A stretch of DNA of 64,000 nt from Polyangium sp. 15x6 (GTDB lineage Bacteria > Myxococcota_A > Polyangia > Polyangiales > Polyangiaceae). The stretch spans positions 62,001-126,000 of the forward strand of contig NZ_JASBQE010000024.1 in NCBI RefSeq assembly GCF_029960785.1, written 5' to 3'. Of this stretch, positions 6,271 to 58,813 are shown one piece after another (position 1 is the stretch's first letter; every line of letters begins with the position of its first letter). The position numbers and the translations under genes are program-made. The notes under the pieces were generated by a model. It had not been told where the DNA came from. It did not search any database and saw only the letters and a program-made list of their open reading frames with translations.

Positions 6271-9200
6271 ATGCGCAGGACCACGAAGCTGACCTTGATG
6301 GCATTCGCCATCCTTTCCACCGGTACGGGGTGTGAGATCATCGCGTCGGTGGATCGGAGCCAGATCGACCAGTCGCCGGGCGCCGGCCCGGGAGGGACCG
6401 GCGGCGCTGGCGGGATGGGCCCCGGCTCCGGCGGGATGGGCCCCGGCTCCGGTGGCATGGGCGGCGTCGGCGGGATCGGCGGCGCTGGCGGGATCGGCGG
6501 CATCGGTGGGATGGGCGGCGCTGGCGGAATGGGCGGCATCGGTGGGATGGGCGGCGCTGGCGGGATCGGCGGCATCGGTGGGATGGGCGGCGCTGGCGGA
6601 ATGGGCGGCGCCGGCGGAATGGGCGGCGCTGGCGGAATGGGCGGCGCTGGCGGAATGGGCGGCGCCGGCGGAATGGGCGGCGTCGGCGGAATGGGCGGCG
6701 CTGGCGGAATGGGCGGCGGCAGCACACAGTGTACCATTCCTGCGGATTGCCCTCCGACGGGGAACGAATGCATCGTCACCACCTGCGACGCGGGGATCTG
6801 CGGCACGGCATTCGTGAATTCCGGCACGCAGGTCGCGACCCAGCAGGACGGCAATTGCAAGGTCGATCAGTGTGACGGCGCCGGAAACGTGGTCAGCGTC
6901 GACGACGACAGCGACCTGCCCGACGACAAGAACGAGTGCACGAGCGACTCGTGCTCGGACGGCACGCCGACCTACACGAACCTGATGTCCGGCGCGGCAT
7001 GCGGCGCCAGCATGAACCTGTTCTGCAACGGAATGGGCGCGTGCGTCGGCTGCGTGACCGTGAACGATTGCCAGGGAAACGACACGGCCTGCCAGACCCG
7101 CACCTGCACGGAAGGTGTTTGCGGCTTCAACAATGCCGCGCAGGGCACCGCCGCGGGCGATCCGACGGACGGTGATTGCAAGCGCGACGTGTGCGACGGC
7201 AATGGCAACATCGTGGCCATGGACGACGCCGCCGACCTGCCGGCCGATGACGGCAATGCGTGCACGGTGGCGGCGTGTGACCCGACGAACGGGCCGGTCC
7301 AGAACCCGGTCAACGTCAACGACAACGACGCTTGTACGAGCGACGCGTGTGATCCGGCGACCGGCGTTTCGCATACGCCCGTCAACATCAATGACAACGA
7401 CGTCTGCACGACGGATGCGTGTGATCCGGCGACCGGCGTTTCGCATACGCCCGTCAACATCAATGACAATGACGCTTGCACGACGGACGCGTGCGATCCG
7501 GTGAACGGTCCCTCCCACACGCCCGTCAGCATCGACGACAATACCGTTTGCACCACGGACGCCTGTGATCCGGCGACCGGCGTCTCCCACACGCCCGTCA
7601 ACATCGACGACAACAATGCTTGCACGGCCGACGCCTGCGATCCGGTGAATGGCGTCTCCCACACGAATCTTCCGTCGGGCACGGATTGCGGCAATGGCAA
7701 TCAGTGCAATGGCATGGGGCAATGTGTCGGGTGCAGCACGGCCGCGGATTGCCCCGGCCAGGTCACCGAGTGTGGCGCGCCGGTCTGCGATGCCGGCGTC
7801 TGCGGCATGACGTACGCGCCGTCGGGCACGCCAGTCGCGACGCAGGTGCCCGGCGATTGCACGGTGGCCGTCTGCAACGGCATGGGCGGCACGGCGACCG
7901 CGATCGACAACAACGACCTTCCGATCGACGGCAACGAGTGCACGCTCGACATCTGCGACAACGGAACGCCGACGCACACGCCCCAGAGCGCGGGCACGCC
8001 GTGCAGCCAGAATGGGGGCACGCAATGTGACGGCAATGGGATGTGCGTCGGGCCGGCGGCGCCGACGGTCGTCAGCACGACGCCCGCCGACGGGGCGCTC
8101 GATGTCCCGATTGGCTCGACGATCGCCGTCACGTTCAGCACCGCCATGAACCCGGCCACGCTGACGGCGACGACCGAGACGGGGGCCTGCACGGGGTCGA
8201 TCCAGATCTCGACGGACGATTTTGCCTCGTGCCTCGGATTCGCGTCGGCCGCGCCGACGATGAGCATGGGCAACACGGTCGCGACGCTCGTGCCTGCACC
8301 GACGCTCTCGTACTTCTCGGCGTACAAGATCCGTGTAACGACGGGGGCACAGAATGCATCGGGCACGCCGCTCGCCGCCGTGTACACGACACCGGACGGG
8401 TTCTTGACGGCAGAGCCAACGACGACCTCGTGCACGGGCTCGATCGTGATCAGCCAGGTGTACGGCGGAGGTGGATCCCCGAATGCACCTTATACCCACG
8501 ATTTCGTGGAGCTCCACAATCGCGGCTCGTCGACCGTGAGCGTCGCGGGCTGGACCGTCCAGTATGCGGCCGCGGCGGGGACGAGCTGGCAAACGGTGGC
8601 CCTGACGGGTTCGATCCCCGCGGGTGGCTATTACCTGGTTCAATTCGGATCGAGCGGCGCGGTCGGCAACCCGCTGCCCACGGCCCAGGCGACGAGCGCA
8701 ACGAACATCGGCCAGAGCGCCGGCAAGGTGGCCCTCGTCAACACGACCACGGCTCTCTCGGGTGCCAATCCGACGGGCGCGCAAATTCAGGACCTCGTAG
8801 GTTACGGGACGACCGCGACCGGCTACGAGGGGACGGGGCCGACGCCGGCGCCGTCCGTTTCGCTCGCCGTCGTGCGAGCCGGCGCCGGGTGCACGGACAC
8901 GAACCAGAATGCGACCGATTTCTCGACGGCCGCGCCTGCGCCCCGCAACTCCGCGACGGCCGCGCTCATCTGCACCTGCCCTCTCGTGGGCGCGATCAAC
9001 GAGTCGGGCGACGCGGCGGAAATGGATTATTGCGTCGTCCAGTACCCGATGAGCACAACCACGACCGCCGGCCAGATGACCGAGACCATTTACGGCCGCG
9101 TCTACGAGTCCGGCTTCACGGATGCGGCCGGCGCGAACGCCGCCATCGTGGCCGAGCTCGGGTTCGGAGCCGCGAACATCAACCCGACCACGCAGAGCGG

Positions 9201-20494: not shown

Positions 20495-20827
20495 ATGACG
20501 ACCGCTGAGCTCCAAAAGGAGACGCTCAAAGAAGGAAACGGCGACGAAGCCAAGGTCGGACACAAGGTCCAAGTGCACTACGTGGGTACGCTCACGAACG
20601 GCAAGAAGTTCGACAGCTCCCGCGACCGTGGCGAGCCCTTCAAGTTCCAGCTCGGCGCCGGGCAGGTGATCAAGGGCTGGGACCAGGGCGTGGTCGGGAT
20701 GAAGGTGGGCGAGCTCAGGAAGCTCACGATCCCGGGGCACCTGGCCTACGGCGAGCGCGGCTTCCCGGGGCTCATCCCGCCGAACGCAACGCTCGTCTTC
20801 GAGGTCGAGCTGATCAGCGTGTCCTGA
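20495..20827 (+). CDS. FKBP-type peptidyl-prolyl cis-trans isomerase
   Basis: This 110-aa single-domain FKBP carries [57 protein letters not shown] and [14 protein letters not shown], which include all the usual rapamycin-pocket aromatics (Tyr, Phe, Asp, Trp, Tyr). There is no signal peptide, so it acts in the cytoplasm on proline bonds during folding. Start ATG 20495 is chosen because AGAGAGGAGAA precedes it and the family begins there; an in-frame ATG at 20435 adds 20 non-conserved residues. The gene is followed after ~20 bp by a palindromic intergenic element, and it converges on the large kinase gene. Confidence 0.95.
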
Positions 20828-20846: not shown

Positions 20847-21160
20847 GCGCCGGGGTTTCACCCCGGACCCGACCAGGGGCTGTCCGCCCCTGGACCCGGA
20901 CCAGCGCAAGCGCTGGACCCAGGGTCGATGAACTGCGCGATGCGCAGTTCATCGAACAGGTCGAGGCAAGACCAGCTACGACCCTGCCAATCAAGACAGC
21001 CGCGCTGCCCTTTCGACGGGCAAGGCTCCCTCACGGGCCCGTTGGAAGAACTGCGCGGAGCGCAGTTCTTCCACCCCGAGTCCAGCGCTTGCGCTGGTTC
21101 GGGTCGAGGGGCGAACAGCCCCCGCGGGGTCCGGGGCGGCGCCCCGGCGCGGCGGCCCCA
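20847..21160. repeat. Palindromic intergenic element, copy A
   Basis: This ~315-bp non-coding element fills almost all the gap between two convergent stop codons (20827 and 21165). It has two outer arms of about 80 bp that are inverted repeats of each other (about 20873-20955 and 21044-21125). Each arm contains smaller perfect or near-perfect palindromes. Examples are the CCAGCGCAAGCGCTGG type at 20901-20916, with its mirror at 21082-21097, a GATGAACTGCGC/GCGCAGTTCATC hairpin at 20927-20954 and a GGAAGAACTGCGC/GCGCAGTTCTTCC hairpin at 21044-21072. The middle ~85 bp is not palindromic. Copy B lies at 36126-36442 in reverse orientation. No ORF of protein-like composition fits. Confidence 0.85.
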
Positions 21161-21164
21161 GACA

Positions 21165-24100
21165 TCACTGCTGAAGGCCGAGCCGCCCGCCATCGACGCG
21201 CAGGTTCGAGAGAGCCCGCGCGACCGCGTCCGCGAGCGGCCGACCCCGGGGGATGACCTCGCCTTCCACGCCCCCCGGCCGATCGAACGACCACACGAGC
21301 ACCGATCCCGCCGCATCCCAGGGCACGAACCGCGTGCGACCCCGGAGCGGCATGCTGCCCACGATCTCGCGGCGCGCGACGTCGAGCGCCGCCACGCGAT
21401 CCGCCGAGAGGAGGAGCATGGAGCGGCCGTCGGGCGCGACGGAGACGTCCTCCCAGACGGTGGCGCCCGAAGCTTCGAGGAGGCGTTCGGGGCCGCGCTC
21501 GCGGAGCACGACCACGCCCGTGTCGTCGGCGTAGACGAGCTCGCCCGGCGAAGGGCCGTCACCGAGCGCCGTCGCGCGCGGGCTCGCATAACCGAGGACG
21601 CGGACCTCCGACGTCGCCTCGTCGATCCGCGCGAGCGCGCCGGAGCTCACCGCGATCCACGAGCCCGCGCCGACCCCACCGCGCGCCGCGCTCGGGCGCA
21701 CGTCGTACACGTAGCCGTCCGCCGAGGCGATCACGCGGGGCGCGGCGGGCGCGCCGTCGAGGGACGTCGCCACGATCGCGCCGTCGAGCCGCTGCGTGTA
21801 GAGCGTGCGGCAAGTGGTGTCGACGGCGAGGACGAGGCCGGCCTCGTGCGGAACCTTGCCGATGGTGGCGCCGCTGCGGGCGTCGAGCACGTGCCAGGCC
21901 TCGCCCTCGCGCTCCCACGCGGCGACGCGGCCGTCCTGGCAACGGCGGAGCAGGTTGCCCTTGCGGCTGAGCTCGCGCTTGCCATCGGCGACGCGATAGA
22001 AGCGGACCTCGTCGTCGACCTGGAACGCGACGACGTCGTTGCTCTCGCGGACCACGGCGCGCACCGAGCTCGTGGACGAGGGCGCGGGGCCGTCCGCGGC
22101 GCGGAAGCGGACGAACGAGTCGACCGCGCCCGTCGCGCCGGAGAGGAGGACGAGGTCGCCCGTCACGACGTGGCCGTCCTCCAGGCGATGGCCGCCGAGG
22201 AGATCCCGCGGGCCGATGGGGACACGCGCGAACGCGGGCACCTCGTCGGGCGAGGTGATGGGCGCGGGGCGCTTGGGGCGAGGCGCGGGCGAGCAAGGCG
22301 CGCCCTTGGGCAGGGCGTCGCCGGGCGCGCGGCCGCCCGGGCGGAGGTAGTGGAAGCGGCCGACGATCGACTTGTCGGGGCCCGTGGGGTCGGTGCCGCA
22401 GACCGCGAGATCGAGGCCTCCTTCGTCCCAGCGCAGGAACGAGGGCGCCTCCACGCTGGGGCCGCGGAAGAGCGGAGTTTCCGGCCGCGCGGGATCGACG
22501 ATCTCGAAGGCGCCATGCTCGGCGAGGGCGAGCAAGGGCTCGCGCGGACCGAAACGCGCGAGGACGACCGCGCTCGTCGGCTTGACCTCCGTGATGCTGC
22601 CCTCGGCCGGTCGCCAGACCACGAGCTTCGATCCGGAGGCGGCCGCGACGAGGGAGCCGTCCGGCGAGACGTCGAGCACGATGCCCTGGAAGGCGTGCGT
22701 GTCGACCTCGCCCGAGCGGCGGAGATCCCAGCGGACGAGGCCGTTCTCCGAGGCGCACGCGAGCACGGGCGCCGCGTCCGCGACCTCGAGCGCGCCCGTG
22801 CAACGGCGCGGCGCGATGGCCGCGAGCATGACCTCGCCGTCGGGACGAAGCCGGAAGATGCGCACTTCGCCGGTGACCGAGCGCGTCGCGAGCGCGGTGT
22901 CGAAGGGGAGCGGGACACGCTCGACGAACGGAGCATCGTGCGGGCGCACGACGAGCGCGCGCGGATGGAGCTCCGCGGCCGCGGTGGGCTCGGCGCCGTC
23001 GGGCGGCGTGGCCTGGTAGAAGGGATCGAAGCGGAGATCGACGACGACGAGGCGCGTGGAACCCTGCGTGGCGACGAGCCATCGATCGTCCCAGGGGAAC
23101 GCGGGATTCGTCGAGGGTTCGAGCGTGAGGAACTGCGCGCGCGGCAGGCCCGTGCCCGCGCGGAGCAGATCGAGCGGCAGCGCCGGATCCTCCGCGCCGA
23201 ACTCGATCGCCTCCGCGATCCAGGCGGCGCGATGGTACGGGTCGTCGACGCGGCGCGATCGGAAGAGGACCTCGGCGATGTAGGCGCGCTCCTCGGCCTC
23301 GACGCGCGCCTGCTCGGCGCGTGCTTGCCGATCGTCCATCGCGCGCTTCAGCGCGGCGGCGCCGAGGACGATGGCGAGCAAGAGGACGATCGAGGCGCCC
23401 TTCAGGATCTTGCGCCGCCGCGCGAGGCGCCGGCTCCTCGCGACGAGCTGGCGTTCGAGCGTGGTGAGCGAGCCGCGCGTCCAGGTGGGCCTGCGCTCGA
23501 CTTCCTCGAAGAGCCAGCCCGTGAGCAGGAAGTCCGGGTGATAAGCCGCCCGATCCCAGGCGATCGCCGCGTCGCGGAGCCGCTCGAGCAAGACGAGCCG
23601 CTCGGCCTCGCGGCTGCGGACCAGCTCGATCTGCGGGACCACGGCGATCGAGGGGTGCGAGAGCTCGACGCGGCCGTCGCGCCGCCGGAGGAGCCCCTCG
23701 CGTTCGAGGCGCGCGAGCACGCGCCGCGCGAGCGCCGTGTCCTCGCCGAGCACCGAGACGAGCTCCTCCTCGTCCCAGCGGACGGGCTTGTGATCGGTCG
23801 TGGAGAGGCGCAGCACGGCTTCGATCGCGATCTCCTGCTGCGCGTCGTCGAGCGAGGCCAGGAGCTTCTCGGCGTGCTTGGCGAGCGCGCCGACGAGCCC
23901 CCCGAGCGCGCGCCATGCCTCCGCGGAGAGCACGAGGCCCGCGCGCGCGCCTGCCTCCGGCGCGCGTTTGTCCCAGAACGCCGCGAGCGCCAGCGCGACG
24001 AGCGGCAACCGATCGTCCGCGCCGCGCAGCTCCCGCTGCACGTCGGCGACGACCGCGTCGGCGCCGAGCATCCGCACGCCGGCGATCCGCGCCGGCCCCG

Positions 24101-25706
24101 TCACGATGTCGTGCACGGCCGCGGCCGGCGGCGGCCCCACGAAGCGGAGCGCGGCGCGCAGGGACGCGAAGGGCGCGGTGGGATCCGAGAGGTTCGCGAC
24201 GTGCTTTTCGCCGAGCGTCGCGAGCACGCGCAGGCCTGGCCGCTCGCCGCCCCCCGCGAGCTCCGCGAGGAGCTCTGCGAGCCGCGTGTTCGTGCCTTCC
24301 GGCGCGGAGAGCGCGTCTTCGAGCGGATCGACGAGCAAGACGATCCCGACGGACGAGCTCGCCGCGTGGCGCGCGATCTCCGCGGACGACGCGCCCACGA
24401 GCGCCGCGTCGACGGCGCCGAGCGCCGCGTCGAGCGCGTGATCCGGATCCTCCCCGGGACGCACGGCCACCGCGATCCAGTCGTCCTTGCCGTCCACCGC
24501 GGCGCGCGCGAGGTGCGGGACGAGGCCGGCAGACGCGAGGGAAGACTTTCCCGCCCCCCGCGGCCCGTACAGCACCACGACCGGCTCGAACGCGAGCTCG
24601 CGGCCGAGCCGCGCCACGTCGTCATCACGCCCGTAAAGCTGCCCCTCGGCCTCCTTCGGAAGCGCCGAGAGCCCTGCATATGGCGGATCCATCACGCCAT
24701 ACGGCCGCTCCCAGGCATCGTCGAACAGCGCCGCGAGCTTGCCCGGGCTGACCCCTCGTTGCAGCGGATCCACGGAGAGGAGCCGCACGAGCAGCGCCAC
24801 GATCCCGCGCGGAAGGCCGGCCGGATCGGCCGCGAGATCACGCAGACGGCCGCGGAGCGTCGCGTCGCGCAGATCCGACCACCACGCGCTCATCGCAGCG
24901 GCATCGGAGAGCTCCCTCGGCTCGTCTGCGACGTCCTCGTACGGCATGCGCCCCGTCGCGAGCTTCACGATGGTCGCGGCGAGGGCGTACGCGTCGGCCG
25001 CGGGCGTGGGCTCGGCGAGCTCGAGGATCTCGGGCGCCATGTACCCCGGCGTGCCCACGACGGCGCGCCCCGAGCTCTGCGCGCGGGTCGGGTGCGACGA
25101 TCGCTCGTCCTGCGCCGCGACGAACGCCGCCGTCTCGAGCCCTGCCGCGTCCCCGCCGTCGAACACCGGCGGCGTGATCTCGGGCGCCTTCGAGCCGGCC
25201 CGCCGCGAGATGCCGAAATCGAGCACCTTGAGCGCGCCGTCGTTCGAGACGAACAGGTTCGCCGGCTTGAGATCCAGGTGCACCACGCCGCGCGTGTGGA
25301 TCACGTCGAGCGCCGCCGCCGTCGCGCGCGCCCAGCCGAGCACGCGCCGCCAGGGCACGCGCTTTCGCTCCCGCAGCACGTCCGCGAGGTTTTTCCCCTC
25401 GAGCAGCTCCATCGCGACGAACGGGACCGCTTCGGGCGCGTGGAGCACGCCCGCGGCGTAGATCGTCACGAGGGAGGGGTGCCGGAACGAGGCGAGCAGC
25501 TTTGCTTCCTCGGCCCAGTGCGCGGCGTCGTACGCCGTCCGCTGCAGGAGCTTCAGCGCGACCGTGCGCAGCGGCACCCCGTCCGGCAGAAGCTCCTCGG
25601 CTCGCCAGACATCGCCGAACCCGCCACGGCCGAGCCGCTCGAGGAGCAAGAACCGGCCGTCGAGCAGCTCCCCCGGCGCGTGGTCCCGCGGCGCTTTGGC
25701 GCTCAT
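21165..25706 (-). CDS. Ser/Thr kinase - STAND-type NTPase - beta-propeller fusion protein
   Basis: This 1513-aa multidomain protein starts with a Hanks-type kinase (about 18-290): RLGRGGFGDVW, VALKLL, GVVHLDLKPANLF and VLDFGIS. Leu replaces Arg in HRD, so it is a non-RD kinase. A P-loop NTPase of the nSTAND1 type follows (Walker [20 protein letters not shown], about 380-400; Walker B-like IVLLVDPLED). A winged-helix or helical region leads to one membrane helix (about 762-780, SIVLLLAIVLGAAAL). The remaining ~720 residues are WD40/propeller-like, with repeated DVSPDGSLVAAAS and LDVSPDG-type units. STAND proteins usually oligomerise on ligand binding by the repeat part. It is the last gene of an operon with the 80-aa gene and the second kinase. 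Confidence 0.88.
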   Translation of the reverse strand: MSAKAPRDHAPGELLDGRFLLLERLGRGGFGDVWRAEELLPDGVPLRTVALKLLQRTAYDAAHWAEEAKLLASFRHPSLVTIYAAGVLHAPEAVPFVAMELLEGKNLADVLRERKRVPWRRVLGWARATAAALDVIHTRGVVHLDLKPANLFVSNDGALKVLDFGISRRAGSKAPEITPPVFDGGDAAGLETAAFVAAQDERSSHPTRAQSSGRAVVGTPGYMAPEILELAEPTPAADAYALAATIVKLATGRMPYEDVADEPRELSDAAAMSAWWSDLRDATLRGRLRDLAADPAGLPRGIVALLVRLLSVDPLQRGVSPGKLAALFDDAWERPYGVMDPPYAGLSALPKEAEGQLYGRDDDVARLGRELAFEPVVVLYGPRGAGKSSLASAGLVPHLARAAVDGKDDWIAVAVRPGEDPDHALDAALGAVDAALVGASSAEIARHAASSSVGIVLLVDPLEDALSAPEGTNTRLAELLAELAGGGERPGLRVLATLGEKHVANLSDPTAPFASLRAALRFVGPPPAAAVHDIVTGPARIAGVRMLGADAVVADVQRELRGADDRLPLVALALAAFWDKRAPEAGARAGLVLSAEAWRALGGLVGALAKHAEKLLASLDDAQQEIAIEAVLRLSTTDHKPVRWDEEELVSVLGEDTALARRVLARLEREGLLRRRDGRVELSHPSIAVVPQIELVRSREAERLVLLERLRDAAIAWDRAAYHPDFLLTGWLFEEVERRPTWTRGSLTTLERQLVARSRRLARRRKILKGASIVLLLAIVLGAAALKRAMDDRQARAEQARVEAEERAYIAEVLFRSRRVDDPYHRAAWIAEAIEFGAEDPALPLDLLRAGTGLPRAQFLTLEPSTNPAFPWDDRWLVATQGSTRLVVVDLRFDPFYQATPPDGAEPTAAAELHPRALVVRPHDAPFVERVPLPFDTALATRSVTGEVRIFRLRPDGEVMLAAIAPRRCTGALEVADAAPVLACASENGLVRWDLRRSGEVDTHAFQGIVLDVSPDGSLVAAASGSKLVVWRPAEGSITEVKPTSAVVLARFGPREPLLALAEHGAFEIVDPARPETPLFRGPSVEAPSFLRWDEGGLDLAVCGTDPTGPDKSIVGRFHYLRPGGRAPGDALPKGAPCSPAPRPKRPAPITSPDEVPAFARVPIGPRDLLGGHRLEDGHVVTGDLVLLSGATGAVDSFVRFRAADGPAPSSTSSVRAVVRESNDVVAFQVDDEVRFYRVADGKRELSRKGNLLRRCQDGRVAAWEREGEAWHVLDARSGATIGKVPHEAGLVLAVDTTCRTLYTQRLDGAIVATSLDGAPAAPRVIASADGYVYDVRPSAARGGVGAGSWIAVSSGALARIDEATSEVRVLGYASPRATALGDGPSPGELVYADDTGVVVLRERGPERLLEASGATVWEDVSVAPDGRSMLLLSADRVAALDVARREIVGSMPLRGRTRFVPWDAAGSVLVWSFDRPGGVEGEVIPRGRPLADAVARALSNLRVDGGRLGLQQ

Positions 25707-29290: not shown

Positions 29291-29410
29291 GTGGGGGGGA
29301 CTTCCAGGACCTCAACGCGTCGAGGTTCGAGTCGTGGGGGGGACCTCCGGAACCCCAACGCGTTGAGGTTCGGGTCGTGGGGGGGACCTCGAGGACCTCA
29401 ACGCGGTGGA
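29291..29410. repeat. 43-bp tandem repeat, about 2.8 copies
   Basis: Units begin at 29291, 29334 and 29377, exactly 43 bp apart. Each starts GTGGGGGGGACCTC-like and contains the inverted repeat CCTCAACGCG-T-(C/T)GAGG. The third unit is truncated and runs into GGACCAGCGCAAG, a 13-base string also found in the palindromic elements A and B. The array lies between divergent promoters of the kinase gene (minus) and the 103-aa gene (plus), so it may be regulatory. Confidence 0.8.
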
Positions 29411-29491
29411 CCAGCGCAAGTGGACTTCCGGTATGCTCATCGGCCGGCGGTGGGATGGGAACGCCCCTGCCGCGACGTTGTCAGGAGCCGT

Positions 29492-34733: not shown

Positions 34734-35738
34734 GTGCACCCAGCCCCTGGAGAAGCGTGGTACCATCTTGCCCGAGGGTCCATTTTGCGCCGGTTTCACT
34801 CTCAGGCAGCCTGCGTGGGGATCGCCTTGCTCGCTGGTACCTCGTGGCCGACGCGTGTGTGGGCGGACGAACCTCCCACGGCCGAAGAGCTGAAGGAGGC
34901 GCGGGAGCGGTTCACGCGAGGGCGAAAGCTCGAAGACGAGGGCAAGTTCGCCGAGGCGCTCGCGCTGTTCCAGGAAGTGGGTCAGGTGAAGATGACCCCG
35001 CAGGTGCGCTTCCACATCGCGCTCTGCCTGGAGCACACCGGGAAGCTGGTCGACGCGCTGGAGACGTTCCGGCTCGCCGCGCGCGAAGCGACGTCGACCG
35101 CGCCAAACGTGGTGGCCGAAGCGAACCAGCACATCGATACGCTCGAAAAACGTGTGCCGACCCTGACGGTCCTGGTCGCGAAGAGTCGTCCCGGGGACGC
35201 GATCTCGCTGGACGGGCGGCCGGTGACCGCGGGCTCCGCGCTTCGCGTGGATCCAGGGGAGTACACGCTCACGTTGAAGCGGGACGGCGCGATCGCGAGC
35301 GAGCAACGCATCACGCTGGAAGAGCGCAAGAGCCTGCGGGTGGAGCTGGAGGCGACACCAGGCGGCGAGGGCGGTGGGGCCGCGCCCTTCTCGCTTCAAC
35401 GAACGCTCGGCTGGACAGCGGTCGGCGTCTCGGCGGCGTCGCTCGTGACGATGGGCGTGTTCATCGGGCTGCGCGGGGATCGGCTGTCGAAGGTCGAGGC
35501 CGCTTGTCCGACGCTCACGAACTGCGATCCATCGGTCGCGCCGATCGCGAACGAAGGCGCGACGTACGCGACGCTGGTGAACGTGTTCGCCGGGCTCTCA
35601 GGGGCGGCAGCCGTCGCCGGCGTCGTGCTCTTGTTCACGGCGCCCGCGCCCGCCGCGAGCGCGCCACGCGCGGGCGTGCGCTTGAATCCCGTCTTCGCTC
35701 CGGGGGTCGGATTTTTATCGGTCGAAGGGAGGTTCTGA
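34734..35738 (+). CDS. TPR protein with PEGA-like domain and C-terminal membrane helices
   Basis: This 334-aa protein starts at GTG 34734, eight bases after the kinase stop, with TGAGG as ribosome site. A signal-like segment (about 22-44) ends VWADE. The mature part opens with TPR-type helices (EELKEARERFTRGRKLEDEG, FAEALALFQEVGQV, RFHIALCLEHTGKLVDALE; about 50-140). A PEGA-like beta unit follows (ISLDGRPVTAGSALRVDPGEYTL, split for reading, about 160-215). Two hydrophobic helices flank a Cys-containing loop (about 225-315). Such TPR-PEGA proteins are frequently encoded next to Ser/Thr kinases in myxobacteria, and this one is coupled to both the kinase and the following lipoprotein. Confidence 0.8.
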   Translation: MHPAPGEAWYHLARGSILRRFHSQAACVGIALLAGTSWPTRVWADEPPTAEELKEARERFTRGRKLEDEGKFAEALALFQEVGQVKMTPQVRFHIALCLEHTGKLVDALETFRLAAREATSTAPNVVAEANQHIDTLEKRVPTLTVLVAKSRPGDAISLDGRPVTAGSALRVDPGEYTLTLKRDGAIASEQRITLEERKSLRVELEATPGGEGGGAAPFSLQRTLGWTAVGVSAASLVTMGVFIGLRGDRLSKVEAACPTLTNCDPSVAPIANEGATYATLVNVFAGLSGAAAVAGVVLLFTAPAPAASAPRAGVRLNPVFAPGVGFLSVEGRF

Positions 35739-36109
35739 TGCTGCGAACGAGCCGCGAGCGCTCTCCGTTTTCGTTCTTCTGCTGTCTGCTCCTCGGCATC
35801 TCTGCGTGCACGTTTCCGGCGATCGATTACGACGAGCCGGGCGAGGCCGCGAGCATCGCATGCGCGGCCACGCCCAAATGCGCGAGCGACGTCGAGTCTT
35901 GCTCGAAGCAGGCCTATGGGGACCGAAGCATGTGCATGTCCCAGTGCGGGAAATCCGGGCCGATGAACTTGAACCCGGATTGCAATTCGTGCGAATCCGC
36001 ACATGAGACGGCCATGAACATCTGCGTCGCAGAATGCGAGTCGTGCAACGCGGCCGATGGCTGCCCGAACGCGACCGACAGCTGCCGCGCCCTGCTCGGC
36101 CTCCCCTGA
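35738..36109 (+). CDS. Small Cys-rich lipoprotein
   Basis: This 123-aa protein begins at an ATG that overlaps the previous stop (TGATG), so it is translationally coupled. The signal MLRTSRERSPFSFFCCLLLG ends in lipobox GISAC. The mature part has about 14 Cys (CAATPKCASDVESCSKQ, MCMSQCGKSG, CNSCESAHE, CVAECESC, CPNATDSC), a spacing typical of disulfide-rich secreted proteins. No family was recognised. The 3' end is followed after ~17 bp by the palindromic element copy B. Confidence 0.8.
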   Translation: MLRTSRERSPFSFFCCLLLGISACTFPAIDYDEPGEAASIACAATPKCASDVESCSKQAYGDRSMCMSQCGKSGPMNLNPDCNSCESAHETAMNICVAECESCNAADGCPNATDSCRALLGLP

Positions 36110-36125
36110 CGCGCGCTGTCTTCTC

Positions 36126-36442
36126 GGGCCGCCGCGCCGGGGCGCTGCCCCGGACCCCGCGGGGGCTGTCCGCCCCTCGACCCGGACCAGGGCAAGCCCT
36201 GGACTCGGGGTGGAAGAACTGCGCTCCGCGCAGTTCTTCCAACGGGCCCGTGACAAGACCAGGGACAGCGTTGCCAGTCACGGCGGTCTTGGTTGGCAGG
36301 GTCGTAGCTGGTCTTGCCTCGGCCTGTTCGATGAACTGCGCATCGCGCAGTTCATCGAACACGAGTCCAGCGCTTGCGCTGGTCCGGGTCCAGGGGCGGA
36401 TAGCCCCGGTGGGGCCTGGGGCGAAGCCCCAGCGCAGCGGCG
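36126..36442. repeat. Palindromic intergenic element, copy B (inverted relative to A)
   Basis: This ~315-bp element is nearly the reverse complement of copy A over its whole length. It carries the same internal hairpins in mirrored order: the GGAAGAACTGCGC-type at 36212-36240 and the CGATGAACTGCGC-type at 36329-36357. The outer arms are again inverted repeats of one another. The two copies differ mainly in the central spacer and in compensating changes inside stems; for example CCAGCGCAAGCGCTGG in A reads CCAGGGCAAGCCCTGG in one arm of B, which keeps the pairing. It also lies between convergent genes (stops at 36109 and 36717). Confidence 0.85.
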
Positions 36443-36716: not shown

Positions 36717-37166
36717 TTACTTCTTCTCTTCCTCATCGGGGGGCGTCGTCATCATGCCGAGCACCTTCGCGCCGGCTTGCTTGGCCCCGTCGAGCGCGGT
36801 GATCAGGCGCGCGTAGTTCGCTTTGTCGTCGGCGATGAAGAAGACGATCTTGTCGTCCTCTTTCCGCCGCTCGAGCTTCCCCTTCAGCTTGTCGACGTAT
36901 TCTTCGTTCGTGACCTTGTCGAAGTTGATCCGGAAATCACCTTCGGTCCCGATACGAACCACGAGCTGATCGGGCGGCACTTCCGTGACCGTCTCGACCT
37001 TCTCCGTCTCCGGCACGCGCACGTCGATGTTCTTCTCGAGCAGCGGCGTGACGACCATGAAGATGATCAACATCACGAGCACGACGTCGATGAGGGGCGT
37101 GACGTTGATGTCCGAGTTCGGCGGATTGGCGGGTTTGATCGCCACCCTTCTCGTCTTTCTGCTCAT
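36717..37166 (-). CDS. exbD: ExbD/TolR-family biopolymer transport protein (second copy)
   Basis: This 149-aa protein has a short cytoplasmic N-terminus and one membrane helix (about 22-42). The helix carries the conserved Asp: INVTPLIDVVLVMLIIFMVV, with Asp near residue 26 in PLID, the proton-path residue of ExbD/TolR. A periplasmic domain (about 45-149) has the pattern VVRIGTEGDFRINFD and ADDKANYARLITALDGAKQAG. The C-terminal tail is Glu/Lys-rich. It is the last gene of the Ton operon, 20 bp after the first exbD gene. Two ExbD copies beside one ExbB are common in delta-proteobacterial and myxobacterial Ton/Tol-like modules and probably act as a heterodimer. Confidence 0.92.
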   Translation of the reverse strand: MSRKTRRVAIKPANPPNSDINVTPLIDVVLVMLIIFMVVTPLLEKNIDVRVPETEKVETVTEVPPDQLVVRIGTEGDFRINFDKVTNEEYVDKLKGKLERRKEDDKIVFFIADDKANYARLITALDGAKQAGAKVLGMMTTPPDEEEKK

Positions 37167-49920: not shown

Positions 49921-50685
49921 ATGAAACGAGCTTCGTTGCGATCGTTCGGCCTCGCCTCGCTCTTCGTCTTGGGCGCCGCGATGGCCGCTTGCGGGACGGA
50001 CACCACGGGACTGTTTGCCTCCGGCGGGCAAGCGACCGGCGCCTCGGGCGGCGCAGGTCAAGGCGGCGCAGGCAACGGCGGCGCAGGACAGGGCGGCATC
50101 GGGAACGGCGGTTCAGGGCAAGGCGGCGCGGGCAACGGCGGCTCGGGCCAAGGCGGCGCAGGCAACGGCGGCTCGGGTCAAGGCGGCGCGGGCAACGGCT
50201 CGTCGAGCTCGTCGAGCAGCATGCAGAGCTCCTCGTCGGGGCCGCCGCCTCCGCCCGTCATGGTCGCGTGTGGCGACATGGCCTGTCCCGTGAGCGGCCA
50301 GAGCGCCTGCTGCTGGGACGAATACGACTACAACGATCCGCCCCAGGGCGAGTGCGTGAGCGGCCCGGACGACAACGACAACTGCTCCACGGACTTCGGC
50401 GGCAACGGCCAGCCGGGCTTCGAGTCGCGCATCGAATGCCAGCTCCCCGAGCACTGCCCCGCCGGCACCGTCTGCTGCGGTGACCTCACGCAGACGAACC
50501 AGGGCAACTGGTATCCGCTCCTCCGCTGTGCTGCCACCTGTACCTACCCCGATCAGCGCGTCGTCTGCGACCCGCAGGCGCCCGACACGGACTGCCCGGT
50601 GGTCCAGGTCGGCGGCAACCAGGTGCAGACGACCTGCCAGCCGAGCACCATCCTCCCGGACGGCTACAACATCTGCCGTCCTTGA
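49921..50685 (+). CDS. Lipoprotein with Gly-rich repeat linker and Cys-rich domain
   Basis: This 254-aa protein has the signal MKRASLRSFGLASLFVLGAA with lipobox MAAC. Residues ~35-95 are a GGAGQGGAGNGG/GSGQ repeat, then a poly-Ser run (about 97-112) and Pro-rich segment. The folded part (about 120-254) has 14 Cys (VACGDMACPVSGQSACCWDE, CPAGTVCCGDL, LRCAATCTYPDQ). GAGGAG lies upstream of the ATG. Its plan (lipobox, Gly linker, Cys-rich head) matches the larger lipoprotein at 6271-9423. Function is unknown; surface exposure is likely. A hairpin terminator follows. Confidence 0.85.
   Translation: MKRASLRSFGLASLFVLGAAMAACGTDTTGLFASGGQATGASGGAGQGGAGNGGAGQGGIGNGGSGQGGAGNGGSGQGGAGNGGSGQGGAGNGSSSSSSSMQSSSSGPPPPPVMVACGDMACPVSGQSACCWDEYDYNDPPQGECVSGPDDNDNCSTDFGGNGQPGFESRIECQLPEHCPAGTVCCGDLTQTNQGNWYPLLRCAATCTYPDQRVVCDPQAPDTDCPVVQVGGNQVQTTCQPSTILPDGYNICRP
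50050..50206 (+). repeat. In-frame Gly-rich coding repeat in the 50-kb lipoprotein
   Basis: Repeats of GGCGGCGCAGG(C/A)AACGGCGG(C/T) units encode GGAGQGGAGNGG-type peptide. Near-identical neighbouring units point to slippage or conversion. Confidence 0.85.
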
Positions 50686-53428: not shown

Positions 53429-56400
53429 TCATGCCTCCGCCGCGAGGACCATGTCCGCCGCGGGCCGCTCGAAGAGCGCGCGGAGGACACGTCCTGTCGC
53501 GGTCGCGCGTCGCGCCACGGCTTCGGGAGCTCCCTCGGCCACGACACGACCGCCGCCCTTGCCGCCCTCGGGTCCGAGCTCGATCACGTGATCGGCGGCC
53601 GCGATCACGGCGGGGTGATGCTCGATGATCAGCAGCGAGTGGCCACGTTGCACGAGACGATCGAGGACGTTCACGAGGCGCGCCACGTCGGAGAGATGCA
53701 GGCCCGTGGTGGGTTCGTCGAGCACGTAGAGCGTGGGCTTGGCGCGCGAGCCGCTGCAGAGCTCGTCGGCCAGCTTGAGGCGCTGCGCCTCGCCGCCCGA
53801 GAGCGTGTGCGAGCCCTGGCCGAGCCGGAGATACCCCACGCCGAGATCACACATGGTGGCGAGCGGCTCGCGGATCTTCGGGTGCGCCGCGAAGAGCTCG
53901 GCCGCCTCCTCGGCCGTACGGAGCAGGACATCGCCGATCGACATGCCGAGGTAACGTACGTCGAGCGTGGCCGGCTCGAAACGTGTTCCGCCGCAAGCCT
54001 CGCAGGTCGTGACGACGTCGGGCAAGAACGACATCTCGTGCGAGATGACCCCCTGCCCTTCGCACACCTCGCAGCGACCGCCCTTCGCCGTGTTGAACGA
54101 GAACCGCGCGGGGTCGTAGCCGCGCATCTTCGCGTCGGGCGTCGCGGCGAAGAGCTTGCGGACCTCGTCCCAGACGCCGAGGAAGGTGGCCGGGATCGAG
54201 CGCGGCGTGCGGCCGATGGGTGATTGATCCACGGCGACGGCGCGCGCGAGCGAGGGCGGCAGGTGGAGCGCGTCGTGCGGCCCGGGATCGGGTCCCGCGA
54301 GGCCGAGGGCGTGGCGCACGGCGGGGTAAAGCACGTGACGGACGAGCGTGCTCTTCCCGGAGCCAGAGACGCCGGCGACGACGGTCATGCGCCCGAGCGG
54401 AACACGCAACGCGTCGACGCGGAGGTTGTGCGCGCGCGCGCCTTCGATCTCCAGGAACTCGTCGGCAGGGCCGAGCCGCGTGCGGGCCGAGGCGAGCGCG
54501 CGCTCGCCGGAGAGGGCCTTCGCGGTGGGCGAGTTTGCCGTGCGAAGCACCTCGGAGGGCGTCCCCTGGGCCACGATGCGGCCGCCGCCGCGCCCGCCGG
54601 TGGGGCCGAGATCGATGAGGTAATCCGCGGCGCGGATGGTGTCCGCGTCGTGCTCGACCATGAGCACGGTGCTGCCCATGCTCGCGAGCTTGCGGAGGTT
54701 GTCGAGCAGCCGATGCGTGTCGCGCGGGTGCAGGCCGATCGTGGGCTCGTCGAGCACGTAGAGCGCGCCCGTGAGGCCGCTGCCGAGCTGCGCGGCGAGG
54801 CGGAGCCGCTGCATCTCGCCGCCGGAGAGCGTGGCCGCGCGGCGATCGAGCGCGAGGTAGCCGAGGCCGACCTCCTCGACGAACGCGAGCCTCCGCGCGA
54901 GCTCACGGTGTGGCGCCTCGGCGACGAGCGCGCGTTCGCCCTCGAAGTGAAGCGCCTTTGCCCAACGCACGGCCTCGGACACCGAGCGCGCGGTCGCCTC
55001 GTGGTACCGATCGCCGGCAAGGCGCACCGAACGCGGGACGGGCGCGAGGCGCGAGCCGCCGCACGCGGTGCACGGCTCGTTCGAGGCGTCGCTGAGATCG
55101 GCGCCTTCGCTTCCGCCGAGCACGCCCGTCCCCTCGCAGGCCTCGCAGCGGCCTTGCTTGGTGTTGAACGAGAACCAGCGCGGATCGAGCTCGGGCACGC
55201 CCGCTCCGCAACGAGGGCAGGTGCGCGTGGTGGAGAGCAGCTCTTCCTGCCCGCGCGAATTGACGAGCTTGAGCGAGCCCTTGCCGAAGGTGAGCGCGCG
55301 GTCGAACGTGGCGCGATCGAGGCCGTCGAGCTTGCCCTCGTGGATCACGAGATCGATCGAGTGCTCGCGCCGTTTGTCGAGGCGCGGCGGATCGTCCGTG
55401 TTTGCCCGCGCGCCGTCGACGATCGCCTCCGTGATGCCCGCGCGCGCCGCGGCCGTGAAGACGTCGAGGTACGTGCCCTTGCGCGCGACGACCGCGGGCG
55501 CGAGGAGCGTGCGCGTGCCCCGCGTGGCGAGCAGCGCGCGGTACACCTCGTCGGGCGCGCGCGCGGTGATGGGGACGTCGCACGTCGGGCAGTGCGGATC
55601 GCCCACCTTGGCGAAGAGGAGCCGCAGGTAGTGGGCGATCTCGGTGACGGTCGCGACCGTCGAGTTCGACCCCGATCGCGTCGTACGCTGCTCGAGCGCG
55701 ATCGCAGGCGGCACGCCCGTGACGCGATCGACGTCGGGGCGCGGCATCGAGGGGAGGAACTGGCGCGCGTACGGCGTGAGCGTCTCCAGGAAGCGCCGTT
55801 GTCCCTCGGCGAAGACGACGTCGAACGCGAGCGTGCTCTTGCCCGATCCGCTCGGCCCCGTGACGACGACGATCTGGCCGTGCGGGATCGACGTGCAGAC
55901 CTCCGCGAGGTTGTGCTCGCGCGCGTGCACGATCTCGATCGCCGACGGCGCGGGCGGATAGGCCGATTTTCCTCGGCGCGACGCGTCTCCGTTCGCCTTC
56001 TCCTTCCGCCGCGATGACGACGGCGGCGACGATGGTTTCGCGAGGTGCGCCGCGAGCGCGCGTCCCGTGCGCGTGCTCGTGCGCGCGACCTCCTCGGGTG
56101 TCCCCTCGGCGACGATTTTCCCGCCGTCGCTGCCCGCGCCCGGGCCGAGATCCACGACCCAGTCGGCGGCCGCGATCACGTCGAGATCGTGATCGACGAC
56201 GATGACGCTCCCGCCGCCGCGTACGAGGTCCCGCATGGCCTGGTTCAGCAGCAGCACCTCTTCCGCGTGCAGACCCGCGCTCGGCTCGTCGAGCAGGAAG
56301 AGCGAGCCCGCCGTCCGTTCGCCGAGAGCGCGCGCGAGCTTGAGCCGCTGCGCCTCACCGCCGGAGAGCGTCGAGAGCGGCTGGCCCAGCGCGAGGTAGC

Positions 56401-58813
56401 CGAGGCCGAGACGCGCGAGCGGCCCGAGCGCGCGCACGATCGTCGGCTCGCGCGCGAAGATCTCGAGCGCCTCGTCGATCGACAGCGCGAGCACGTCGGC
56501 CACGGAGCGGCCGTCCACCTTGACCGCCAGCACCTCGTCACGGAAGCGTTTGCCTTGACAGACCGGGCACGTCAACGAGACGTCGGCGAGGAACTGCATC
56601 TCGATCGTCTCGGCGCCCTCGCCCGCGCACGACTCGCACCGCCCGAGCGCGACGTTGAACGAGAAATGCCCCGCCGTGAGCTTTCGCGCGGCCGCCTCGG
56701 GCTCCGCGGCGAACTTCTGGCGGATGCGGTTCCACGCGCCCGTGTACGTCGCGGGGTTGCCGCGCGAGGTGCGGCCGAGCGGGGCTTGATCGACGAGCGT
56801 GACGACCTTGACCCCGCTCGTGCCTTCGATCTTCTTGTGCGGTCCCGCGGGCTCGATGTCCTTGTAGCCGCGGGCCCGCGCGAGGGCGCGGTAGAGCACG
56901 TCCTCCACGAGCGTGCTCTTGCCGGATCCGCTCGCGCCCGTCACGCACACGACCTGCCCGAGCGGCAAGCGCGTGCTGACGTCCTTCAAGTTGTTCGCGC
57001 GCGCCCCCACGATGGCGATCGATCCACGCGCCGCAGGACGCTCGTCTGAAGGCGCGACGCTCGCCGCGCCTCGCGCGAGAGCGCGCCCCGTGGGCAGGTC
57101 GGTCCTTCGCGTGAGCTCCGCCGGCGCGCCGTCGAACACCACGCGACCGCCCTGCTTGCCCGCGCCGGGGCCGAGCTCGACCACGCGATCCGAGGCCCGG
57201 ATCACGAGCGGCTCGTGCTCGATCACCACCACGACGTTCCCGCGCGCCGCGAGCTCGCGCATCGCCTCGATGAGCGGCGGGATGTCGCTCGCGTGCAGCC
57301 CCACCGTCGGCTCGTCGAGCACGAACAGCGCGCCCGTGAGCGACGTCCCGAGCGCGCCCGTCAACGTCACGCGTTGCGCCTCACCGCCCGAGAGCGTGCG
57401 CGCTTGCCGATCGAGCGTCAGGTACCCGAGCCCCACGCGCTCCAGGTACGAGAGCCGCTGCGCGAGCTCCTTCCGCGCGATCTCCCCCTGCCCCGTCGTC
57501 GCCTTCAAGCGCTCGAGCAGCGCGCGCGCCTCGCGCAGCTCGAGCCCGTGCCAGCTCGCGAGATCGAGCCCGCCCACGCGGTAGAGCAAGGACTCCGGCG
57601 AGAGGCGCTTGCCGTCGCACGTCGCGCACGGATCGTAGGAGCGGTACCGCGCGAGCAGCACGCGGATGTGCATCTTGTACGTGCGCGTCTCCAGCCACTT
57701 GAACCACGCGCGCACGCCGGGGTACCTGTCACCGCGGAAGCTGCCCTCGCCGTCGAGCACCTGCGCGCGCTGCGCCTCGGTGAGCTCCTTCCACGGCACG
57801 TCGAGCGGGATGCCCTTCTTCTCGCAGAACTTCTTGAGGACCTTCCGCTCCCACGACGTGCTCGACCCCGTCCACGGCCGGATCGCCCCGCCTTCGAGGG
57901 TCTTCTCGTCGTCGGGGATCACCTTGCCCCAGTCGACGCCGATCGTTCGGCCAAACCCGCGGCACCCCGGGCACGCGCCGATCGGAGACTGGTACGAGAA
58001 CAGGCCCGGCCGCGCGGCGTCGAAGCTCCGCGCGCACGACGGGCAGGCGAGCCCCCGCGGCACGAGCACGCGCCGCCCCGCGCCGTTCGCGCCCGAGCCG
58101 CCGACGTAGAGCGCCACGCCTCCCTCGGCCCGCTGCCACGCCTCCTCGATCGCCGATCCGAGGCGCCGCGCGTCCCGCGCGCCGATCTTCACGCGGTCGA
58201 CGATCACCTCGACCCCGCCGCCCGCGCCGAGCGCGTCGCTCGGCCCGACCTCGTCGATGTCGCGCACCTCGCCGCGCACGAGCAGACGCCGGTAGCCCGC
58301 TTCGAGCAGCGTCTCGCGCACGTCGAGCAGCTCCTCGGTGCCGGCGACGGGCACGCGGTACGTGACGAGCGCGGTCGATCCCTCGTGGCTCTCCACGGCC
58401 TTCGACGCGGCCGTCACCGCGTCGACGCGGACCGCCGGAACCTGGCACGTGGGGCACACGGGCGTGGCCTCGCGGGCGAACACGGCCGACAGGTACGGCT
58501 CGAGATCGGCCATCGTGGCGACCGTGGAGCGCGAGCTCTTCACGGGCGCGCGGCGATCGACGGCCACGCCCGCGGCGACCGGATCGAGCTCGTCGATCGG
58601 CGGACGCTCGAGCCGCTCCAGGAACTGCCGCGCGTACGGGCTGAAGCTCTCCACGAAGCGGCGTTGCCCTTCCGAGTAGAGCGTATCGAGCGCGAGGGAG
58701 GACTTTCCCGCGCCGGAGACGCCCGTGAAGCAAACGAGCTGCCCGGGCACGAGCTCGAGGTCGATGCCCTGGAGGTTGTGGGTGCGCGCGCCGCGGATGC
58801 GGATGGGTTGCAT
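53429..58813 (-). CDS. uvrA: Double-length excinuclease ABC subunit A (two UvrA units fused)
   Basis: This 1794-aa protein is about twice the usual UvrA length, with four ABC ATPase cassettes. Walker A sites are GVSGAGKSS (31-39), GASGSGKST (about 622), GPSGSGKST (about 982) and GVSGSGKST (about 1479). Signatures are [11 protein letters not shown] (about 470), [12 protein letters not shown] (about 820), [11 protein letters not shown] (about 1330) and [15 protein letters not shown] (about 1675). Zinc-finger Cys sets such as CESCAGEG and [15 protein letters not shown] and CEACGGTR are present in both halves. A Ser/Lys/Arg-rich linker (about 920-955) joins the units. Such tandem UvrA proteins are known from myxobacteria and Chlamydia. 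It recognises DNA damage and loads UvrB. ATG 58813 is the start; smpB is divergent. Confidence 0.96.

Follow-up and report, generated by a model that had tools for sequence, protein, structure and literature searches.

The window analysed here, a 64,000-nucleotide stretch of the genome of Polyangium sp. 15x6, carries two elements of ~315 bp, A and B, which lie in opposite orientations in gaps between convergent genes (Table 1). By eye, we take the gene that runs towards A from the left to be an FKBP-type peptidyl-prolyl isomerase, and the one that faces it from the right to be protein-kinase-like. An earlier note on this DNA, made from the sequence alone, had described A and B as near-complete inverted copies of each other, and this is what we observe: aligned in inverted orientation, they share blocks of 132 and 127 nt with 95% and 94% complementarity. 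The mirrored arms with smaller palindromes around a core are also there, with four hairpins per arm mirrored about the core in both elements, and with A's two arms complementary to each other over 85 nt (85%). The predicted fold of A is very stable (MFE of -233 kcal/mol, z = -14.7 against 100 shuffles). Our own codon-model gene caller called no gene in A or B, in line with the absence of a plausible ORF noted before; at ~315 bp and with no gene, both are short and free of a transposase gene, as miniature elements of the MITE kind are. The description of each element as filling its convergent gap and ending near stop codons holds for A and for the left side of B, but not for the right side of B, where the next called gene does not end until 36717 and B therefore occupies just part of a ~600-bp convergent gap.

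Table 1. Coordinates of elements A and B, their parts and their neighbouring genes in the window.
Feature	Position	Strand	Remarks
Convergent neighbour of A	20495..20827	+	stop at 20827
Element copy A	20847..21160	+	two inverted four-hairpin arms flanking core
A left arm, hairpin 1	20850..20866	+	CCGGGG..CCCCGG; helix 1 of covariation count
A left arm, hairpin 2	20873..20893	+	helix 2 of covariation count
A left arm, hairpin 3	20901..20916	+	CCAGCGC..GCGCTGG
A left arm, hairpin 4	20925..20955	+	CGATGAACTGCGC type; helix 4 of covariation count
A core between arms	20956..21042	+	87 nt
A right arm, hairpin 4	21043..21073	+	GGAAGAACTGCGC type
A right arm, hairpin 3	21082..21097	+	
A right arm, hairpin 2	21108..21122	+	
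A right arm, hairpin 1	21131..21147	+	
Convergent neighbour of A	21165..25706	-	stop at 21165
Gene to the left of B	35738..36109	+	stop at 36109; ends 16 nt before B
B left end, probable worn terminal inverted repeat	36117..36133	.	TGTCTTCTCGGGCCGCC; 7 mismatches in 22-nt end pattern
Element copy B	36126..36442	-	orientation opposite to A
Right-hand convergent neighbour of B	36717..37145	-	

Copies were counted in the window's own genome (G000) and in five congeneric Polyangium genomes (G001-G005). In G000, the fourth hairpin has 480 exact matches, and a reversed control has 0. If all of them were paired they would make 240 elements, which sets the copy number at no less than ~240; among 50 matches listed, 34 make 17 pairs and 16 are single, and the true number of elements in G000 is probably nearer 300. 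The other five genomes show 37, 431, 248, 183, and 177 matches, respectively. Further copies thus exist in this genome and in related ones, and the possibility that A and B are a chance-duplicated spacer is discarded. There is also an S-type, which has a single arm and another fourth hairpin; it gave 31, 5, 37, 18, 44, and 23 matches in G000 to G005. Across 33 genomes of other genera of the same family and order, the fourth hairpin matched once in one genome and never in the rest, and the S-type never. In a public scan, at least eight contigs of other bacteria had one hairpin match each; having no full arm, these eight look like chance, and they were excluded before the counts. Among the genomes searched, the repeat is seen in Polyangium alone, and we did not find the family in open-licence papers on Polyangium extragenic palindromes, insertion sequences, or MITEs. 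The samples of loci used below are not random: L001-L030 were ranked by similarity to A, L046-L125 come from a scan for the exact hairpin (at least 80 loci from 82 stretches), and L205-L311 were mostly fetched by the terminal repeat or chosen from such matches.

Full-length copies measure 336-396 bp and end in CTGAGCATKGGTCTCATC inverted repeats that sit ~31 nt outside hairpin 1. Complete members consist of two inverted arms of four hairpins enclosed by ~19-bp CTGAGCATKGGTCTCATCT terminal repeats. At loci not fetched by the terminal repeat, it was present (with up to 5 mismatches) at 32 of 250 ends and at none of 250 shuffled flanks. Ends with and without it surround the same kind of arms. It is found at one end in 39 of 140 double elements, and at neither in 79. 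At roughly -11, counted from hairpin 1, conservation falls off in a step and not gradually, with just a weak gradient of partial repeats in G000. As for target duplications, which the earlier note had proposed to look for, a 9-bp direct repeat (at most one mismatch) flanks 16 of the 35 two-ended elements, against 0.59% in a re-paired null, and these repeats directly abut CTGAGC/GCTCAG. Other lengths yielded little (0-2 each for 5-8 and 10-14 bp, 8 for 4 bp). Among the 22 MITE-size elements in this set, 11 have the 9-bp repeat, and L203 and L292 have a perfect 10-bp one. The remaining 19 of the 35 show no 9-bp repeat, in a set that retains some probably false or nested pairings (e.g. L197 and L282). 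In the 79 double elements without terminal repeats, no duplications above the null were detected. Regarding A and B, the left end of B bears its putative worn repeat at roughly the expected place, with a mismatch count equalled in 3 of 250 shuffled flanks, while the left and right ends of A and the right end of B (10, 10, and 11 mismatches to the 22-nt end pattern) do not match it. Since neither has an intact terminal repeat, we infer that A and B are MITEs from their relatives.

Searching for the terminal repeat in relatives revealed an insertion sequence (IS) of 1503-1504 bp with the same ends. It is present once in G002 and four times in G005, where its copies are 99.6-99.9% identical. Several matches near contig ends in G003 correspond to the end of its transposase and resemble a collapsed multi-copy IS. 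The transposase matches the NF033590 model of the IS4 family (2.8e-71; 240.6 bits against a cut-off of 160), the Tn5-type DNA-binding, DDE, and dimerisation domains (PF14706, PF01609, and PF02281, all above cut-off), and the solved structure of the Tn5 transposase (8e-31). Because complete copies share their ends with this Tn5/IS4-family IS, those copies are MITEs, and the IS probably moves them. With a threshold of E <= 1e-10, only two fragments of the transposase were found in G000 and none in G004; distant homologues are present in some other genera. A DDE_Tnp_1 search of G000 gave seven matches, one of them (L239) at the Tn5-like remnant and two (L237 and L238) with longer open frames. End-like sequences at these loci are looser (up to 4 mismatches in 15), the best being that of L235, with 2 mismatches. 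The ends of Tn5 start with CTGA and are ~19 bp long, and its insertion duplicates 9 bp. The partner IS resembles Tn5/IS50, of the IS4 family, in all three respects, as well as in its transposase domains and in the structure match; past CTGA, its end sequence presumably differs from that of Tn5. Unlike Tn5/IS50, its insertions are biased to hairpins, including hairpin 3 of its own MITE.

The targets are often hairpins, be they terminator-like stems or the element's own third hairpin. We rebuilt the empty sites of 18 elements with duplications, three of the sites being inside elements, and obtained a median MFE of -19.5, compared to -15.4 for random sites (p = 0.001) and -14.3 for the centres of native convergent gaps (p = 0.011). 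For instance, L203, L221, L248, and L292 are inserted mid-stem in stems of the CCCCTC..GAGGGG type, while several of the 18 sites show no clear hairpin (e.g. L294 and L207). In other copies, the hairpin that corresponds to hairpin 3 of A is a place where the partner IS lands. Four of the five IS copies have hairpin 3 of an element on one or both flanks. Those in L274, L276, and L284 are within hairpin 3 of another element and have matching 9-bp flanks, which in L274 and L276 are CCAGGCACGGCCTGG; the copy in L275 lacks a duplication and has hairpin 3 on just one side, and that in L273, with an 8/9 repeat, is not within any element. Among MITE ends, 7 of 112 have outer flanks within arms, compared to 23 of 3000 random 50-mers.

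Position between genes was tallied, with genes called by our own codon model, for the 123 unique elements that remained of 156 after requiring at least 700 bp on either side and removing duplicates; orthologous copies of different species were counted separately. The elements lie in convergent (82), tandem (32), and divergent (8) gaps, with one at an edge and none inside genes, compared to 92 convergent, 351 tandem, and 93 divergent among 536 background gaps. The median distance from stop codon to element is 14 nt (n=196), and 164 of these distances are within 40 nt. The bias towards convergent gaps could also arise by selection against other locations. A role as bidirectional terminator would be compatible with the position and the predicted fold. 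A scan for intrinsic-terminator patterns yielded 5 sites compared to 6.0 in shuffles, and in A and B the outer hairpins gave no match to a T-run terminator. At one locus of G004 (L063:1335), the element's own end (GCGTAG) appears to supply the stop codon of the neighbouring gene, as judged against the orthologous gene in L108.

Stretches of 54-80 kb from all five relatives are collinear with the window. The inversion of the 20.8-36.4 kb segment between A and B, considered possible in the earlier note, was seen in none of them and we rejected it. Site B is empty in all five, and site A in four, where a spacer of 10-13 bp separates the convergent stops; in G004, site A is occupied by a single-arm relative. 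At A itself the native 10-13-bp spacer was not recognisable and no duplication was seen. One further site has single-arm elements in G002, G003, and G005, and none in G000. From flank matches we inferred 58 orthologous pairs across species, 23 with a match on both flanks and some of the single-flank ones within repeats. Elements at orthologous sites are often of different type or orientation: in the pair L047/L185, for example, flanks match at 95.5%, and elements at 73% forward and 80% inverted. Such differences look more like replacement than decay. Within each genome, where 3 to 49 double elements were compared, no two were identical or at least 98% identical, and hence there has been no very recent burst.

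Differences inside stems had been noted before as often compensated, and read as selection for folding. In 44 arms, of which 43 are distinct, standard pairs make up 99.8% of 1313 cells; changes are two-sided in 11 of 31 pairs (94 cells) and never one-sided. Compensation is therefore clear, but the variants are a few hairpin types common to many copies, representing fewer independent events than copies. In one arm alignment some of the stem columns were fixed by the search pattern; a count of 365 arms that relaxes this pattern, leaving out one loose pair, gives 9028 Watson-Crick, 5 G-U, 9 A-C, and 12 other cells. An opposite-direction control on the 44 arms showed 14 further pair types against 16.5, below 497 of 500 shuffles, which we read as the absence of G-U pairs. 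The stems thus covary by Watson-Crick pairs, and the near-absence of G-U argues against selection on a one-strand RNA. The counts point to pairing kept on both strands, and agree better with a two-strand constraint, as of DNA palindromes, or equally with hairpin-templated correction, than with selection on a single RNA strand.

We prefer, as probable on the whole, the explanation that A and B are members of a family of MITEs in Polyangium. What is observed are the terminal repeats and 9-bp duplications, the occurrence of the same ends on a Tn5-like IS, and the bias of insertions to hairpins. Its parts differ in strength: it is highly probable that the family is one of non-autonomous mobile elements, and we lean towards A and B themselves having arisen as decayed copies. 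The earlier reading is thus partly supported, its MITE option being supported for the family and, through kinship, for A and B. In the mechanism that we propose, the transposase of the IS would move the MITE in trans, and the MITE would land in terminator-like hairpins, which would explain why it lies directly behind stop codons in convergent gaps. By taking over from the split hairpin as a two-way terminator or as a block at the mRNA 3' end, the arms would persist even as terminal repeats and duplications wear away, and A and B would be copies worn in this way. An extension of this model, which we regard as possible though doubtful, is a self-feeding terminator transposon: the transposase would pick 3'-end hairpins, the MITE's own two-sided array of terminator hairpins would repair the interrupted terminator, and hairpin 3 would serve as the next landing pad, so that the same convergent gaps would be re-invaded and elements replaced or flipped while occupancy is conserved.

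The most serious alternative takes the arms for a REP-like repeat in its own right, resident at gene 3' ends and spread or homogenised by ectopic conversion between copies or by an unknown enzyme. The Tn5-like IS would then just target their hairpins, some of which would have come to lie between its ends. Such a repeat would account for the sharp boundary at about -11 in ends without terminal repeat, for the 218 of 250 sampled ends that lack it, for the single-arm S-type with its other fourth hairpin and no terminal repeat seen at the sites read, and for the differing types or orientations at orthologous sites. It would also fit the fact that the partner is a remnant in G000 and missing in G004, yet these genomes have 480 and 183 hairpin matches. 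However, the same kind of arms lies inside both sorts of ends, 39 of 140 double elements retain the repeat at one end, G000 shows its weak gradient of partial repeats, B bears a worn one, and no other mobiliser was found. We consider this alternative rather unlikely, and favour a MITE that was once complete and has decayed, its arms being retained by selection.

Extragenic palindromes at gene 3' ends, in high copy number and in paired inverted units, are also what a REP or REPIN family moved by a RAYT (Y1 tyrosine transposase) would look like, as the earlier note had suggested. Nevertheless, matches to the Y1 domain (PF01797) number 0-2 per genome and are absent from three of the six; the four found are short or partial genes with no arm within flanks of ~1.5 kb, and the elements show 9-bp duplications and DDE-type ends instead. 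We rejected the RAYT as mobiliser, and the odds left for this explanation are close to negligible. Only slightly less improbable is the idea that the repeat is a conserved structured RNA or riboregulator and was amplified in this capacity: this would explain the strong fold and the covariation, yet it conflicts with pairing kept on both strands (9028 Watson-Crick vs 5 G-U cells) and with insertion polymorphism among relatives, and Rfam gave 0 matches in the window at gathering scores, which speaks against a known structured RNA.

Several described repeats are close to the Polyangium family. According to PMC3733652, REPs are 20-40 bp long and lie mostly downstream of genes, also between convergent genes. 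The Polyangium elements resemble REPs, BIMEs, and REPINs in being extragenic palindromes in inverted pairs, mostly 3' of genes and also in convergent gaps, but their units are much longer, with no RAYT association and apparently no consistent GTAG/CGTC tag: T is found at -4 in 90 of 252 ends and A at -3 in 28 of 252, which limits CGTC to at most 90 and GTAG to at most 28. MITEAba12, as presented in PMC6382973, is 113 bp long and AT-rich, with one or two copies in its strain. Both are short and gene-free, with terminal repeats, 9-bp duplications, and a proposed IS parent; in contrast, the Polyangium element is ~360 bp long, is present in at least ~240 copies, and has eight GC-rich hairpins. According to a review (PMC10969869), QMITE2 of Coxiella has many copies, truncated forms without terminal repeats that resemble REPs, and is a target of IS1111. 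It is thus similar as a many-copy MITE with forms devoid of terminal repeats and as a target of an IS, but has other ends and a partner of another family, and the word 'convergent' is absent from that review. The Polyangium family ties high-copy extragenic palindromes to an identified DDE-type (Tn5-like) partner, not to a RAYT. It offers a concrete system in which to ask if such repeats persist because they serve as transcription terminators that can be replaced, and what could make a Tn5-type transposase prefer hairpins.

In G005, a 2.09-kb cargo-bearing relative (L272:1038-3127; G005:C1:6313000-6317500) is bounded by the terminal repeats of the family, has a perfect 9-bp duplication, and lies in hairpin 3. 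It bears a 499-aa gene and no called transposase. By eye, we take the product of this gene to be lipoprotein-like. In G004, facing MITE ends lie 3.5 kb apart around a 371-aa gene (L281:660-4198; G004:C45) that, by eye, looks like an IS1-type transposase gene; the arrangement is probably a nested insertion. Long cores, or close elements several hundred bases apart, in either case with no evident gene, are found at L163, L164, L113, and G005:C1:2817122-2817527. One long-core stretch recurs in G005, partly as tandem repeats with a period of ~64 bp. We rejected the presence of a cargo gene in long-core copies: the gene caller placed nothing in the 1-kb core of L278, and no gene was apparent in the three others read.

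The window has other repeats too. Tandem or periodic repeats with units of 9/18, 72, 43, and 15/30 bp occur at 6372-6771, 7247-7665, 29291-29419, and 50026-50229, three of the four within called genes. A called gene of 1795 codons (53429-58813) contains repeats spaced 1026/1539 bp apart and, by eye, ABC-ATPase-like motifs; we presume it to be perhaps a duplicated or fused UvrA.
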